A stretch of 37,641 nucleotides of DNA from Deltaproteobacteria bacterium (GTDB lineage: Bacteria > BMS3Abin14), in the NCBI GenBank assembly GCA_013151915.1, contig JAADHJ010000033.1, forward strand, positions 1 to 37,641. The letters run 5' to 3'. Position 1 is the stretch's first letter. Every line of letters begins with the position of its first letter. Under the pieces are notes generated by a model. That model was not told the origin of the DNA. It did not search any database and worked only from the letters and a program-made list of their open reading frames with translations. This document shows positions 25,370 through 35,022 of this stretch, piece after piece. The translations under genes were made by a program, and so were the position numbers.

Positions 25370-27199
25370 ATGAACAAAATACATCATCCATCATCAAACG
25401 GCGCACACACCTTCTTCATACCGGTTATGGGAATTGGGTTCACTGTCGACTCTCCCATCAGGGTCGCGAAGTACGGTATCTCCTCGACGATTTCCCTCGT
25501 CGACGATACCTTCATCGAGCAGATGCGCAGGTTTCATTGTGAACGGGTGGGGGAACCCTATGAGGAGATTCCCAAGAGCGAGCACGACCACCGGGCCAAG
25601 CGGATCACCGCCTACCTCAACCTCATTGACAGGCTTGTTAAAACAGGGGTCGAGGAGCTTAGGAGTTCCCCCTTCGAGCCGGGCAGCGAGATTACCCGAT
25701 GTTTTGAGCTGCTTCCGGACTGTTCCTTGAAATCATCCTACCTCGAAATGCTCGGCACCGGCGATGTCGCCGAGAGGAGGCGGAGACAGGAGGCGCTGCG
25801 CCGCCGGATTGTCCCGGGAAGCATAGATGTCAATATCATGACCAAACTTGACCGGGACTATTTTCGAAAGGGGAAGGCGCTTCCCCATGAATTCTCCGAT
25901 GCGCTTGCCGCTTTACGAGGTTATGCCAATAGTACCTTAAGATCCTCCATCGTGTTTTCCGCGGGTCTGAACCCCCGTCTCTACAGCTATGCCGCCAACT
26001 TCAACGATTTCCTCCCCGATGAGACAAAACCCCTGAAGAAGCAGATCGTTCTTAAGGTGAGCGATTACCGATCAGCCGTGGTTCAGGGCAAGTTCCTTGC
26101 AAAACGGGGCCTTTGGGTCTCCGAATACCGTATTGAATCCGGCCTCAACTGCGGAGGTCACGCTTTCCCGTCCAAGGGAAACCTTATGGGGTCGATTCTC
26201 GAGGAGTTCAAGCAGAAGAAAGAGGAACTGATCGGCCAGCTTCACAAGCTCTATTCTACAGCCCTTTCGTCGCGTGGATTGTCCCCCACGCCTGATCCTT
26301 ATGAGGTCCGCTTCAGGGTATCGGGAGGGGTTGGGACCGCCGAGGAGCACGAGTTTTTACGAAAATTCTACGGGATAAGCAAAGTTGGATGGGGCACCCC
26401 GTTCCTCCTGGTCCCTGAGGTAACAAACGTTGACAATGAACATATCGAAAAGCTCATCAACGCCGACGACGACGATGTTTACCTGAGCGCATCTTCACCC
26501 CTGAATGTACCATTCTGGAACCTCCGGACATCCGCCAGCGAGGAAGCGCGCCGGCAACGAATCCGGGAGGGCCGGCCGGGCAGCCCCTGTCCCAAGGGTC
26601 ATGCCAGGATCTTCAACACGGAATTTACCACGCACCCGGACTGCATTGCTTCAAGAAGCTACATCAGTAAGAAGCTGCCTCACATGGAGGATGAGGAGCT
26701 TACGGAGGAACAGTTCAACTGGATTAAAGAGGACGTTCTGGCCAAATCGTGTCTCTGCCACGACCTCTCAGGAGGCGCAACGCTTGAAAATGGGATCGAT
26801 CCCAAAGCGACACCCGCCATATGCTGCGGGCCCGCCATCGTAAACTTCTCGAAAATCGCCACTTTAGAGGAGATGGTGGACCATATTTACGGGCGGCTTT
26901 CCCTGCTGACCAGTTCGGACCGGCCTCACATGTTCATCCGGGAGCTGTCCATCAACCTGGACTATCTGAAGGGCGAGATGGAAAAGTTCTCCCTGGGCCT
27001 CATGAACACAGCTCCAAAGTATTTCCGGGAATTCAAGGATAATCTGGCTACCGGCATTGAATACTACATGAAGCTTGCCGAACAGTTCGTGGAGGAGAAA
27101 CGGACACGTTTTCTCGACGACCTCAGAGAACAGAAGGAAGTCCTGGAAAACCTGTTTGCCGTAATGGCCCGGGAACCGGACCTCAATGCCGCCGGCTAG
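25370..27199 (+). CDS. Conserved-type protein of unknown function, 609 residues
   Basis: I do not recognise this protein. It is soluble and long. The N-terminus PVMGIGFTVDSPIRVAKYGISSTISLVDD resembles the first strands of TIM-barrel flavin enzymes such as nitronate monooxygenase-like proteins, but no clear FMN motif is seen. Conspicuous parts are SGLNCGGHAFPSKGNLMG near 257, RRQRIREGRPGSPCPKGHAR near 390-410, and two Cys-containing stretches KSCLCHDLSGGA and PAICCGPAIVNFSK near 460-490. These could bind a cofactor or cluster. The last ~100 residues are helical. It has its own promoter and ends overlapping the stop of the convergent DUF2007 gene by 4 nt. Confidence 0.6.
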   Translation: MNKIHHPSSNGAHTFFIPVMGIGFTVDSPIRVAKYGISSTISLVDDTFIEQMRRFHCERVGEPYEEIPKSEHDHRAKRITAYLNLIDRLVKTGVEELRSSPFEPGSEITRCFELLPDCSLKSSYLEMLGTGDVAERRRRQEALRRRIVPGSIDVNIMTKLDRDYFRKGKALPHEFSDALAALRGYANSTLRSSIVFSAGLNPRLYSYAANFNDFLPDETKPLKKQIVLKVSDYRSAVVQGKFLAKRGLWVSEYRIESGLNCGGHAFPSKGNLMGSILEEFKQKKEELIGQLHKLYSTALSSRGLSPTPDPYEVRFRVSGGVGTAEEHEFLRKFYGISKVGWGTPFLLVPEVTNVDNEHIEKLINADDDDVYLSASSPLNVPFWNLRTSASEEARRQRIREGRPGSPCPKGHARIFNTEFTTHPDCIASRSYISKKLPHMEDEELTEEQFNWIKEDVLAKSCLCHDLSGGATLENGIDPKATPAICCGPAIVNFSKIATLEEMVDHIYGRLSLLTSSDRPHMFIRELSINLDYLKGEMEKFSLGLMNTAPKYFREFKDNLATGIEYYMKLAEQFVEEKRTRFLDDLREQKEVLENLFAVMAREPDLNAAG

Positions 27200-28367: not shown

Positions 28368-28504
28368 TCATCAACGCGCCCACTGAAGGGCGCTCAAATC
28401 AACGGCTTGCAGCGCAAGTTGTTGATTTGTAAGGAAAGTGAAAATGACACTTTTCGCTTTCCGTTAAGTAAAAAGCCACGAAAGGACTTTTTATGACCCT
28501 ATCA
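28368..28504 (+). mobile_element. GAT...ATC hairpin MITE-like element, 5'-truncated long form (E1)
   Basis: This copy lacks its first ~20 bp and starts at TCATCAACGCGCC. It has the long-form hairpin GGCTTGCAGCGCAAG and ends GACCCTATC at 28504. It is separated from E2 by a 6-bp linker (AAAGAT). Confidence 0.7.
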
Positions 28505-28510
28505 AAGATG

Positions 28511-28662
28511 ATGACTTTGTAAAAAGTCATCATTGCGCCCACTGAAGGGCGCCCAAATCAATAACTTGCGTTGCAAGTCATTGATTTGTAAGGAAAGTGA
28601 AAATGACATTTTTCGCTTTCCGTGGAGTAAAAAGCCATGAATGGACTTTTTACGACCCTATC
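28511..28662 (+). mobile_element. GAT...ATC hairpin MITE-like element, complete long form (E2)
   Basis: This is a 152-bp copy, GATGACTTTGT...ACGACCCTATC, with the long-form hairpin AACTTGCGTTGCAAGTC. It lies upstream of lexA, 206 nt from its start, in the sense orientation. Confidence 0.75.
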
Positions 28663-28868
28663 AAGGTCCAACGGGGGAAAACGGACGTCCTTCGATCCCG
28701 CCGACGGCGGGACTTCGGACAAGCGGGGCGCGGGAGCACGGGGGAGGGCGGCATGGGAGTATGGGTATAAGGACGTATTGAAGAGCAACCGAAAAAATGC
28801 AATCATTGTTGTGTTCCCGGTCGATGTTGGATCCTGGATTTTAAATTGACCACCCCGGAGGTACTGAC

Positions 28869-31396: not shown

Positions 31397-33175
31397 TTAT
31401 TGTGCTGAACCTAAAGATAAGGCCTCTTCCGCACATTGGGTGACACAGGCATTACACGCAAAACATTCCAACTGTTTTTGAATTCTGATCCTGCTTTTAT
31501 CTATAATCCCAAATACGCCTTTCGGACAAACCATAAAACAGACCCGGCAATTATTACATCTATTTACATCCTGGCGAATTCTTCCAGAGCTAAAGGCTTC
31601 GGCTGAAAAAATATGCCCGAAAGAGGCCATTCCAAGTTTATGCATTAACCATTCGGCCTCTGACGGGTTGCCTGCCACAATGCCTCTCAAATCGAAGCCA
31701 AACCAGATGTTTATTACACTGACTATTATCATTGTTTTCCAATGGCTGAATACAGGCATGTTCAATATAAAAATGGAAAACATAGAGATCAAGATGACTT
31801 CTATTCCGGATAAGACAGCTGCTTTGAGCCAGCCACTTTTCCCCGGGATTAAAGGAAATCCGGCATAAAGCATAAAGCCCGTTATCCAGAAAAAGGCGCT
31901 GAGGGAGAAAAACATATCTGGTTTTATTAACAACGTACTTATTCCCATTACAATCCAGACAATGAAGTTCATTGAAAGCAGCATTTCCAACCTGAATAAT
32001 AAAGGGAACTCGGCTTTGTTATGCTCAAATACTATTTTACGGTTTTTTAAGAACAAAGGAATGTTTTTAGAATATGCCGGACCGAAAAGTCCAGTTCGTC
32101 CTGTCTCTTTCTTAAGAAGGTTGCAGTCAATACCCGGCGCTGAAAATTGCGGCAGAATAATTTTATGGTGATCAACTCTTTCATTAATTCGGCTCGTTTT
32201 AATAATCGTTATTACTGAATGCGCGTTTAATTCTCCCCCACAAGATGCACACCATACATTAATACCGTTTGCAGGTGCCACCAGCAGGAAAACATTTTCA
32301 CCTTTTAATGATCTCTCAACCCGTCGTACAGTAAGATGAAAATTACTGGTAAGAATCACAGGTGAGTTTCTGTCCGGCTTGCCTATGATTCGAAGGCCCG
32401 GTTCAACGGGATTTGGAAACCAGCGACCGATAAAATCCCATACGGATTTAATAAGTGAAAAATCATCTTTCGGTTTGCCTGCTCCGGGCAATACAGTTTC
32501 ATCGGGGTTGTCATCCGCTGGTTTTTGGGCCGAAAGCACAATGAAGCTATCCAGGAATGAACGACTCTCCCCGATGATGGTTAAGCCTGATTCACTTATT
32601 TCTTCCGAAATTCCAGGTATTGCTTTTGTACCGGTTTGGGCAATGACATAGGTCAAAATGATTAAAGGGAAACGAACTAAGAAGTGGATTATCCTTTTTA
32701 GTGGTTTTTCAGGCTGAACTTCTGCGGCAATTACAAGCATGCCGTTCGGTTTCAATAATCTCTTGATCTGATTTAACGTTAATGCTCTTTCTTCAGCATA
32801 GAGTTCACTGAAAACAAGAGTCGATACAATCAGATCGAAACTATTTTCATCAAAAATCGAACCTATTTCAGCAGCCCCGGCATTATGAAGGGTAATCCTA
32901 TCCTGCATCCCACTGTTGGCAATCTGTTTTCGAGCGACCGCTAACATTCCAGTTGATATATCCACGCCTGTTGTGATAGCTCCTGCCTTTGCAGCATCTA
33001 TAATCAGTGAGCCCGTTCCACAACCGATATCAAGTATTTCCATGCGAGGTTTTACGTGAAGTTGTACAATTTCCCTTCTGATCTTTTTTGCGTGGCCCAA
33101 CGAAAGAATATTAATGCCCTTATCATAACGTTCGGGCCGGTTCTCAAGTATTTTCATGAAGACATAAGAAAACAT
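31397..33175 (-). CDS. Fusion: SAM methyltransferase + HgcA-like corrinoid domain + TM + HgcB-like ferredoxin
   Basis: This is a 592-residue protein. Residues ~20-215 are a class I SAM methyltransferase (motif I EILDIGCGTGS, 47-56; LLKPNGMLVIAAE, about 140-152). Residues ~260-380 resemble the corrinoid domain of mercury-methylating HgcA: PVILTSNFHLTVRRVERSL, VAPANGINVWC with the cap Cys309, HHKIILPQFSAPGID and GLFGPAYSKNIPLFLK. The usual WC(A/S)(A/S)GK continues here as WCASCGGE, adding Cys312. About four TM helices span 394-495. The C-terminus is a 2x[4Fe-4S] ferredoxin (Cys540, 543, 546, 550 and 571, 574, 577, 581), like HgcB. HgcAB-like fusions are known but their substrate is not. The tail GSAQ-stop lies in a dispersed repeat. 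AT-rich. Confidence 0.85.
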   Translation of the reverse strand: MFSYVFMKILENRPERYDKGINILSLGHAKKIRREIVQLHVKPRMEILDIGCGTGSLIIDAAKAGAITTGVDISTGMLAVARKQIANSGMQDRITLHNAGAAEIGSIFDENSFDLIVSTLVFSELYAEERALTLNQIKRLLKPNGMLVIAAEVQPEKPLKRIIHFLVRFPLIILTYVIAQTGTKAIPGISEEISESGLTIIGESRSFLDSFIVLSAQKPADDNPDETVLPGAGKPKDDFSLIKSVWDFIGRWFPNPVEPGLRIIGKPDRNSPVILTSNFHLTVRRVERSLKGENVFLLVAPANGINVWCASCGGELNAHSVITIIKTSRINERVDHHKIILPQFSAPGIDCNLLKKETGRTGLFGPAYSKNIPLFLKNRKIVFEHNKAEFPLLFRLEMLLSMNFIVWIVMGISTLLIKPDMFFSLSAFFWITGFMLYAGFPLIPGKSGWLKAAVLSGIEVILISMFSIFILNMPVFSHWKTMIIVSVINIWFGFDLRGIVAGNPSEAEWLMHKLGMASFGHIFSAEAFSSGRIRQDVNRCNNCRVCFMVCPKGVFGIIDKSRIRIQKQLECFACNACVTQCAEEALSLGSAQ

Positions 33176-33399: not shown

Positions 33400-33990
33400 T
33401 TACATCTGTTTAAAACCTGTAATTTTAACTCCAATTATATTCTCAGTAACTTTACAATTCAATGATTTCGTTTCTTTTATTAATTCTCTTAATTCATCAG
33501 GAGTATAGGCTGCATCAATTGAAGTAATAAGCCCTGGTCGTATTTCTTTGGGTTTTGTATTAATCAACAGAAACCATTTCACAAATATATTCATATCTCT
33601 TCTCAAGTCTGAGATAAAAAATTTTCCATTCGATTTTAAGACTCGGCATATCTCGTTAAATGTATTTTCAGGATCATGCCACTCGTGAAGAGAACCATTT
33701 GTAAAGACTGCATCAAACAAATTATCTTCAAAGGGCATTTTATCACCCATGCCTTCTATATATTCAACTCGGTCTGTCAAATTGTATTCATTTGCATTAC
33801 GTTCCGCGATTTTTAGCATATCATTACTAATATCTAATGCGTTAAGAGTTGTATTTTGAGTTTTTGTTAGCCATTCAAGTCCAAGGTATCCAGGACCTGG
33901 ACCAACTTCAAGTGCTGATCCTTGTGTTATTCCACTTTTAATGATGTCATTTGTCTCAATCCAACCTTGATAGGGTCGCAAAAAGTCCAT
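33400..33990 (-). CDS. Class I SAM methyltransferase, C-terminal part of a gene split by a mobile element
   Basis: The open frame of 196 residues has the SAM fold: ALEVGPGPGYLGLEW (motif I), LNALDISNDMLKIAE, GDKMPFEDNLFDAVFTNGSLHEW and CRVLKSNGKFFISDLRRD. However, the start codon and first eight codons (MDFLRPYQ) are the end of the inserted hairpin element, not native. The native gene starts at 34220, beyond the element; removing 33969-34120 and one 6-bp repeat rejoins ...RRLRDKG to WIETNDIIKS in frame. The fragment lacks the native helical N-terminus and has no ribosome site, so activity is doubtful. The family is common in methanogens and anaerobes; the substrate is unknown. Confidence 0.8.
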   Translation of the reverse strand: MDFLRPYQGWIETNDIIKSGITQGSALEVGPGPGYLGLEWLTKTQNTTLNALDISNDMLKIAERNANEYNLTDRVEYIEGMGDKMPFEDNLFDAVFTNGSLHEWHDPENTFNEICRVLKSNGKFFISDLRRDMNIFVKWFLLINTKPKEIRPGLITSIDAAYTPDELRELIKETKSLNCKVTENIIGVKITGFKQM

Positions 33991-34120
33991 TTATGGCTTT
34001 TTGCTCTACGGAAAGCGAAAAGTGTCATTTTCACTTTCCTTACAAATCAACAACTTGGATGCAAGTCATTGATTTGGGCGCCCATCAGTGGGCACATTGA
34101 TGACTTTTTGCGAAGTCATC
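33969..34120 (-). mobile_element. GAT...ATC hairpin MITE-like element disrupting a methyltransferase gene, long form (F)
   Basis: This is a 152-bp complete copy on the minus strand. Perfect 6-bp repeats AACCTT flank it at 33963-33968 and 34121-34126. Its ends are imperfect inverted repeats: GATGACTTCGCAAAAAGTC at one end and GATAGGGTCGCAAAAAGTC at the other. It has the usual chain of hairpins and no ORF. It is sense-oriented relative to the interrupted gene. Confidence 0.88.
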
Positions 34121-34242: not shown

Positions 34243-35022
34243 TTAAGGAACTGACCCAAAAGCGAATAATCGTTGAAAATGAAGAATTATCCCTCTGCCC
34301 GTATCGTCCTTTTCTATTTCTTGAAGCAGCTTTTGTTTGAATAGACGCTTCTGGCCTGCCCCTAACGGACTCAAATACATTGGCAACCCAACTGAATCAA
34401 AAAAGTCGTAAACCTGTGAAGCCATTCTAAATCTGAAATCATTTTGCACCTTCTTTACAGAAATATCCTGGTATCCAACGGCCCGCAACATACTTTTATA
34501 GTCCTTTTCATCTGTAACAAACCATGGAAACTTCCAAGCATGATAATATTCTTCAAGTCCAAGCGCCGTAACTGCCAGTCGAGTATAATAAATAAGGGGA
34601 TGGTTCTCATTCAGCAAAGGAAACTGCAAACCAATGTGCCCTTTCGACTTTAGCGCTGTATGGATATCCAGGAGAACTTTTTTATTCTCTGGAACCCAGT
34701 GCAAGACCGAATTAGAAAAAACCACATCAAATTCATGCTGAAACTGGATATTCTCAGCATCCAATACGAGAAATTCGATATTCGAGGTGCCGGCAGCATG
34801 AGCCTTTGCTTGATTGATCATCGATGATGATGCATCAATTCCCAGGACAAATCCCTGATTACATCGAGATGCCAATTCGGCGGTGAGATTGCCTACCCCA
34901 CAACCTATGTCCAGAATTTTATAGTGTGGTTGAAGCCGGACAGTATTGATAAGCGTTTTTCCCACTTCTGCCTGTAAATCTGAAATCGCAGCGTATTTTG
35001 AACCATCCCAATCAAAAACCAT
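34243..35022 (-). CDS. Class I SAM methyltransferase (trans-aconitate methyltransferase-like)
   Basis: This 259-residue protein shows motif I at residues 36-46 (ILDIGCGVGNL), the acidic motif II (VLGIDASSSMINQAKAHA), LVLDAENIQFQHEFDVVFSNSVLHWV and a C-terminal helical domain (QVYDFFDSVGLPMYLSPL). The LHWV stretch and the overall order resemble trans-aconitate 2-methyltransferase (Tam), but also other small-molecule methyltransferases. The substrate is not known. First in the minus-strand order methyltransferase, split methyltransferase, HgcAB-like fusion. AT-rich relative to the window. Confidence 0.8.
   Translation of the reverse strand: MVFDWDGSKYAAISDLQAEVGKTLINTVRLQPHYKILDIGCGVGNLTAELASRCNQGFVLGIDASSSMINQAKAHAAGTSNIEFLVLDAENIQFQHEFDVVFSNSVLHWVPENKKVLLDIHTALKSKGHIGLQFPLLNENHPLIYYTRLAVTALGLEEYYHAWKFPWFVTDEKDYKSMLRAVGYQDISVKKVQNDFRFRMASQVYDFFDSVGLPMYLSPLGAGQKRLFKQKLLQEIEKDDTGRGIILHFQRLFAFGSVP

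Follow-up and report, generated by a model that had tools for sequence, protein, structure and literature searches.

The protein described here is a relative of the mercury-methylating HgcAB complex. A 2024 report named SAM, unexpectedly, as the methyl donor for HgcAB; in the purified protein the methyl group of SAM goes to Co(I), a Cys thiolate sits on methyl-Co(III), and the HgcB clusters are the electron route (PMC11588087). HgcA has five transmembrane (TM) helices, and full HgcAB activity needs at least one C-terminal HgcB Cys (PMC7305189). Mutation of HgcB Cys73 abolishes mercury methylation, and loss of both C-terminal cysteines cuts it by 95% (reported in PMC7305189). Published work treats fused HgcAB as a non-methylating paralogue (PMC7438021, PMC7573106). 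Strains with fused HgcAB were negative in Hg assays (PMC5893877, PMC7319479), and no MeHg was obtained from M. methylutens and P. furiosus, both of which carry it (PMC5893877). Two NCBIfam families, CpaM (“corrinoid protein-associated methyltransferase,” NF043040) and “HgcAB-like fusion protein” (NF043039), already imply by their names both halves of our protein and their association; the latter probably takes in the fused HgcAB of the Pyrococcus/Methanococcoides type.

Our window comprises the first 37,641 nucleotides of contig JAADHJ010000033.1 from a Deltaproteobacteria bacterium (assembly GCA_013151915.1). On its minus strand, an ORF at 31397-33175 with an ATG start and an intact frame encodes a polypeptide of 592 amino acids that joins CpaM, an HgcA-like corrinoid/TM domain, and an HgcB-like ferredoxin (ORF call, NCBIfam, Pfam, and AF2). 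All features given for this protein lie on the same strand. The CpaM-type class I SAM methyltransferase domain (residues 3-218; 32522-33169), recognized by NF043040, conserved residues, AF2, and hydropathy, contains the SAM loop ILDIGCGTG (residues 47-55) and a hydrophobic helix (residues 158-179, from AF2 and hydropathy). A linker (residues 219-241; 32453-32521) fills the gap between the NF043040 and NF043039 matches and leads into the HgcAB-like region (residues 242-587; 31415-32452), which is delimited by NF043039 and by a Foldseek match to the published HgcAB model 9a0b_A. Within this region lie (i) a Rossmann-like corrinoid-binding domain (residues 254-376; 32048-32416), assigned from Pfam CdhD and the CFeSP gamma C-terminal domain (2h9a/4djd); (ii) in it the cap helix NVWCASCGGELN (residues 306-317; 32225-32260), with the invariant Cys309 as predicted cobalt ligand; (iii) four TM helices (residues 392-417, 419-438, 448-469, and 475-493; 31697-32002), from AF2 secondary structure and hydropathy; and (iv) a 2x[4Fe-4S] ferredoxin domain (residues 533-588; 31412-31579; NCBIfam, Pfam, and Cys motifs) with two CxxCxxCxxxC motifs, Cys 540/543/546/550 and 571/574/577/581. 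This bears out the initial annotation, which had read one ORF with a SAM methyltransferase, an HgcA-like domain, about four TM helices, and a two-cluster ferredoxin; its numbering of Cys309 is also correct, NVWC being residues 306-309.

The AF2 model (pLDDT 91, pTM 0.90) shows an alternating beta/alpha domain at residues 260-377, four long helices at 392-493, and the ferredoxin. Foldseek aligns it with 9a0b_A over 322 columns (target of 329 residues; E=2.6e-11), and UbiE/Coq5-type methyltransferases are also matched. The CdhD corrinoid domain was found by Pfam at residues 254-374 (E=6.6e-18), and a profile built from four relatives matches this domain to the one at the C terminus of CFeSP in 2h9a, 4c1n, and 4djd, with the cap Cys facing a CFeSP Thr. 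The predicted beta/alpha fold is of the corrinoid type, so that the objection of a missing Rossmann corrinoid fold falls away; with the expected fold and with profile scores that set the protein beside HgcA, the kinship proposed in the initial annotation stands. The HgcA of the same genome has five hydrophobic peaks, against four TM helices in the fusion. With an even number of TM helices, the ferredoxin would emerge on the side of the corrinoid and methyltransferase domains, as the fusion requires.

Profile scores assign the protein to HgcAB-like (357.3 bits over residues 242-587; cut-off 285) and CpaM (266.7 bits over residues 3-218; cut-off 180), not to HgcA or HgcB. Since both halves exceed their NCBIfam cut-offs, the kind of protein is already known and is not an unrecognized one; the three-part polypeptide is the variant. 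The HgcA, HgcB, and CdhD comparison suggested earlier gave a CdhD match, whereas the true HgcA model (NF040863) scores 124 bits, far below its cut-off of 275, and the HgcB model (NF040864) 38.8 bits against a cut-off of 99. PRK04165 (CFeSP gamma) matches the C-terminal domain only, at 78.5 bits, and its cut-off of 306 is not reached. The protein has the corrinoid-TM domain and dicluster ferredoxin in a single ORF that characterize HgcAB-like proteins, and its CpaM part is fused to an HgcA-type corrinoid protein, as expected of a family found adjoining or fused to such partners. In the phylogeny, the fusion groups with HgcAB-like sequences and falls outside the HgcA clade, which has a long stem and 100/100 support.

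The initial annotation also emphasized an altered cap in which GK is replaced and a second Cys forms CxxC. Both changes exist: the cap reads NVWCASCGG where HgcA has N(V/I)WCA(A/S/G)GK, with the Cys kept and the Lys lost. However, neither is special to this protein. Across 75 HgcAB-like sequences, Asn306, Trp308, and Cys309 are invariant (Cys309 in 75/75), and because Gly313 takes the position of the HgcA cap Lys in 74 of the 75, this Lys has been lost family-wide. The cap varies at residue 312 (Thr in 22, Ala in 16, Cys in 13, Lys in 6, and others), which is Arg, Glu, or Ala in the sister fusions; the CxxC is thus incidental, unconserved even in the closest relatives, and we reject it as a redox or metal site common to the family. 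Canonical HgcA also varies at the cap, as in L012 (NVWCAAGEG), whose HgcB is normal.

The strongest evidence against mercury as the acceptor comes not from the cap but from the other end of the protein, together with the negative Hg assays. The fusion ends 11 residues past its last cluster Cys in the tail AEEALSLGSAQ, with no GVGC and no further Cys, and a search for a GVGC-like motif in HgcAB-like tails found none in 81. All canonical HgcB proteins examined have GVGC at the Cys73 position (GVAC in the partner of L022) and a Cys-containing tail. In addition, the genome that holds the fusion carries a canonical hgcA on another contig (NVWCAAGK; 445 bits, above cut-off) and a canonical hgcB (GVGC plus CECC; 116 bits, above cut-off). 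Mercury methylation, if it occurs in this organism, therefore has its own genes. The sequences make the organism a putative Hg methylator through that pair and offer a natural side-by-side comparison with the fusion. At this second locus (G000:C59:41324-42531; L002, L165), the canonical pair stands beside genes for a LivF-type ABC ATPase and a TauE-like protein. A mercury methylase in one chain, with CpaM supplying the methyl group for Hg(II), would agree with the shared HgcAB fold, the invariant NVWC, and SAM donor chemistry (PMC11588087). We consider it improbable in view of the HgcA score (124 against 275), the position outside the HgcA clade on its long stem, the absence of Cys73 and of the C-terminal cysteines on which Hg methylation depends (as reported in PMC7305189), the lack of MeHg from fused-HgcAB M. 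methylutens and P. furiosus (PMC5893877), and the canonical pair already present. The suggestion that the acceptor is something other than Hg(II) is thus probably right, and CpaM-HgcAB-like genes should be left out of mercury-methylator counts in hgcA surveys.

CpaM and HgcAB-like proteins behave as a single system. Of 290 genomes sampled (CpaM threshold, E<=1e-45), 8 carry CpaM and the identical 8 carry HgcAB-like, always adjacent or fused (Fisher 9e-16, the genomes not being fully independent). One of the eight HgcAB-like matches, the shorter protein of G016 (227 bits), lies below the family cut-off of 285. Canonical-type HgcA without CpaM was found in 17 other genomes of this sample. Among 32 genomes chosen for HgcAB-like, 31 have CpaM, and over 80 loci the pairwise distances of the two families correlate (r=0.873; 0 of 2,000 permutations as high), indicating co-inheritance. 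Around the same 80 loci we found no recurrent neighbor other than CpaM, the remaining clusters that recur having the look of antisense shadows of both genes; no conserved neighbor points to an acceptor. Fusions form two clades in the tree, a bacterial one (n=11; bootstrap 98, SH-aLRT 94) and an Asgard pair (100/100). A single clade of both, and hence a single origin of all CpaM-HgcAB fusions, is rejected by the AU test (p=0.0077). At least two independent events have thus joined CpaM to the N terminus of HgcA-type proteins. A further form, CpaM-HgcA, exists in L022 and L160 beside a separate Cys-tailed HgcB; these proteins finish in membrane segments rather than in a ferredoxin.

No observation argues more strongly for an action of CpaM on the corrinoid domain than these repeated, independent fusions. 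Because SAM methylates purified canonical HgcAB in the absence of CpaM (PMC11588087), a corrinoid protein with this fold may do without such a partner, and CpaM could instead act on the acceptor; this is the main doubt about the mechanism. CpaM might methylate the acceptor, another small molecule, or a lipid, while the HgcAB-like part is charged directly by SAM or by another donor; the likeness of CpaM to UbiE and phospholipid methyltransferases in sequence and fold and its hydrophobic helix at residues 158-179 would fit such a role. We regard this as rather unlikely, since CpaM never occurs without an HgcA-type partner in the 290 genomes and since three architectures repeatedly show it attached straight to the N-terminal side of the corrinoid domain.

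We favor, with a probability of roughly 0.6, the reading that the fusion is a single-chain, membrane-bound, SAM-dependent corrinoid methyltransferase with an acceptor other than Hg(II). Its chain has exactly the parts that the HgcAB cycle calls for: the methyltransferase that uses SAM, the invariant cap Cys, the predicted corrinoid fold, and the dicluster ferredoxin. In the proposed cycle, electrons from the C-terminal 2x[4Fe-4S] ferredoxin would bring the cobalt of the corrinoid to Co(I), to which the N-terminal CpaM domain would pass CH3+ from SAM, and Cys309 would then ligate methyl-Co(III) from below (“Cys-on”); the methyl group would finally be passed to the acceptor. The idea that SAM may charge the corrinoid internally gains credit from the repeated CpaM fusion, the strict co-occurrence, and the SAM chemistry of HgcAB (PMC11588087). 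Likewise, the presence of a dicluster ferredoxin, with the HgcB clusters as precedent (PMC11588087), is consistent with the ferredoxin as corrinoid reductant, and the invariance of Cys309 (75/75) argues for a Cys-on corrinoid. We infer that cobalt rather than another target is methylated by CpaM. A search of this genome for the CFeSP gamma subunit found none, which makes methyl supply from the Wood-Ljungdahl pathway through CFeSP unlikely, and a link to that pathway was rejected.

As for the acceptor, a trans thiolate is expected to favor carbanion or radical over cation methyl transfer (work summarized in PMC7305189), so that a soft electrophile, meaning a metal or metalloid species, would be the likeliest class. 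A nucleophilic acceptor (thiol or pterin) in the manner of the MtaA/CmuA corrinoid methyltransferases, perhaps as part of C1 or methyl-sulfur metabolism, runs counter to that expectation. It would fit the neighborhoods of two bacterial fusions: that of L031 has an MtaA/CmuA-like gene (TIGR01463 E=3e-38, under the cut-off of the model) immediately downstream, and that of L023 has genes of the URO-D superfamily immediately upstream. Such neighbors occur at 2 of the 11 bacterial fusion loci and are absent from the window and the other loci, and we hold this alternative to be quite unlikely here. The adjoining genes themselves (L031:7016-8167 and L023:2809-5140) are a lead toward another acceptor.

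Three variants among the relatives were observed in passing. The CpaM-HgcA architecture (L022:757-2615 and L160:924-3000) scores under both the HgcA and the HgcAB-like cut-offs. L081, L084, L097, and L139 form an HgcAB-like subclade; the three examined (L081, L084, and L097) have Cys-rich tails (CSCPTC) after the ferredoxin and are possibly, from these motifs, another metal-handling variant. The L081 genome has no CpaM. Finally, 34 of 62 unfused HgcAB-like proteins (L009, L052-L102) lack the second Cys (543) of the first cluster motif; the three remaining Cys residues could hold a site-differentiated [4Fe-4S] or a [3Fe-4S] cluster.

The fusion has spread horizontally. Eight homologues share 58-82% identity over the HgcAB-like part, so the fusion is not a chance product; their MAGs are labeled Spirochaetes, Desulfarculaceae, Desulfobacteraceae, Caldithrix, and Bacteroidetes. 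Within the phylum of the window, the fusion occurs in 1 of 12 genomes compared, namely, this one. The GC content of the fusion gene and two neighboring methyltransferase genes is 0.34-0.42, lower than in the window as a whole (0.53) and in flanking genes (0.55-0.62), and horizontal acquisition is the simplest reading. Its sporadic presence might also suggest a decayed or nonfunctional paralogue; however, the intact 592-residue frame, the eight cluster Cys residues, the retention of all catalytic motifs, the confident fold, and full-length fusions 65-81% identical in several phyla make this very hard to sustain.

Upstream on the same strand lie a small SAM methyltransferase gene (33400-33990, minus strand; NCBIfam, Pfam), which is of low GC and is not a conserved neighbor, and a Tam/BioC-like SAM methyltransferase gene (34243-35022, minus strand; NCBIfam, Pfam), also of low GC. 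From the contig beyond (33400-37641 plus L164, G000:C33:33000-52000), same-strand genes resembling an efflux set (TetR, TolC-like, HlyD, EmrB) lead into these two methyltransferase genes and then the fusion; this order is not conserved elsewhere. A dispersed, REP/MITE-like repeat of about 94 bp, single or tandem (28415-28505, 28574-28667, and 33964-34057; 55 matches in the genome), flanks a stretch that contains lexA, the fusion, and genes for an MFS protein and a methyltransferase. A 609-amino-acid ORF at 25370-27199 has no Pfam match at E<=1e-5.

In the literature searched, which omits many journals, we found neither CpaM nor the three-part protein treated in any paper. What the present analysis adds is the recognition of the three-part fusion as a clade, the evidence that fusion occurred repeatedly and independently, the figures for strict co-occurrence, and the finding that the mercury-handling Cys motif of HgcB is absent throughout the family. 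A SAM methyltransferase fused to HgcA-type corrinoid proteins points to SAM charging as a general property of the superfamily, and also to a nonmercury reaction that may be ancestral to mercury methylation; with all parts in one chain, the fusion provides a single protein for testing SAM charging. Chances seem evenly balanced that this is a one-chain enzyme in which SAM is coupled to a membrane corrinoid with a Cys ligand and to an integral ferredoxin, serving an undescribed organometallic or metabolite methylation that occurs in anaerobes from many phyla and for which CpaM is the dedicated SAM:Co(I) methyltransferase.

Compared with known systems, the fusion shares with the HgcAB-like family (NF043039) an HgcA-like corrinoid and TM domain joined to a ferredoxin and an NVWC cap without Lys; it differs in having CpaM in the chain, a short tail after the second cluster, and all eight cluster Cys residues, whereas Cys543 is absent in 34 of the 62 unfused members. 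CpaM (NF043040) itself is usually a separate gene immediately upstream, while here it makes up residues 3-218 of one chain. With the HgcA and HgcB pair (NF040863 and NF040864), the fusion has in common the fold, the invariant cap Cys, the two-cluster ferredoxin, and, by analogy with canonical HgcAB, a presumed SAM donor, but it lacks the cap Lys, the fifth TM helix, HgcB Cys73, and the Cys tail, belongs to a separate clade, and has CpaM attached. The CFeSP gamma subunit (CdhE/AcsC) of the Wood-Ljungdahl pathway has a homologous C-terminal corrinoid domain; unlike it, the fusion has no TIM barrel, is predicted to be membrane bound, and carries its cap Cys where CFeSP has Thr. Finally, the CpaM-HgcA proteins beside a separate HgcB (L022, and L160 of Lokiarchaeota) likewise have CpaM N-terminal to an HgcA-type protein, but they have no ferredoxin in the chain, their separate HgcB has extra cysteines, and the CpaM-HgcA chain of L022 has a fifth hydrophobic segment like HgcA.
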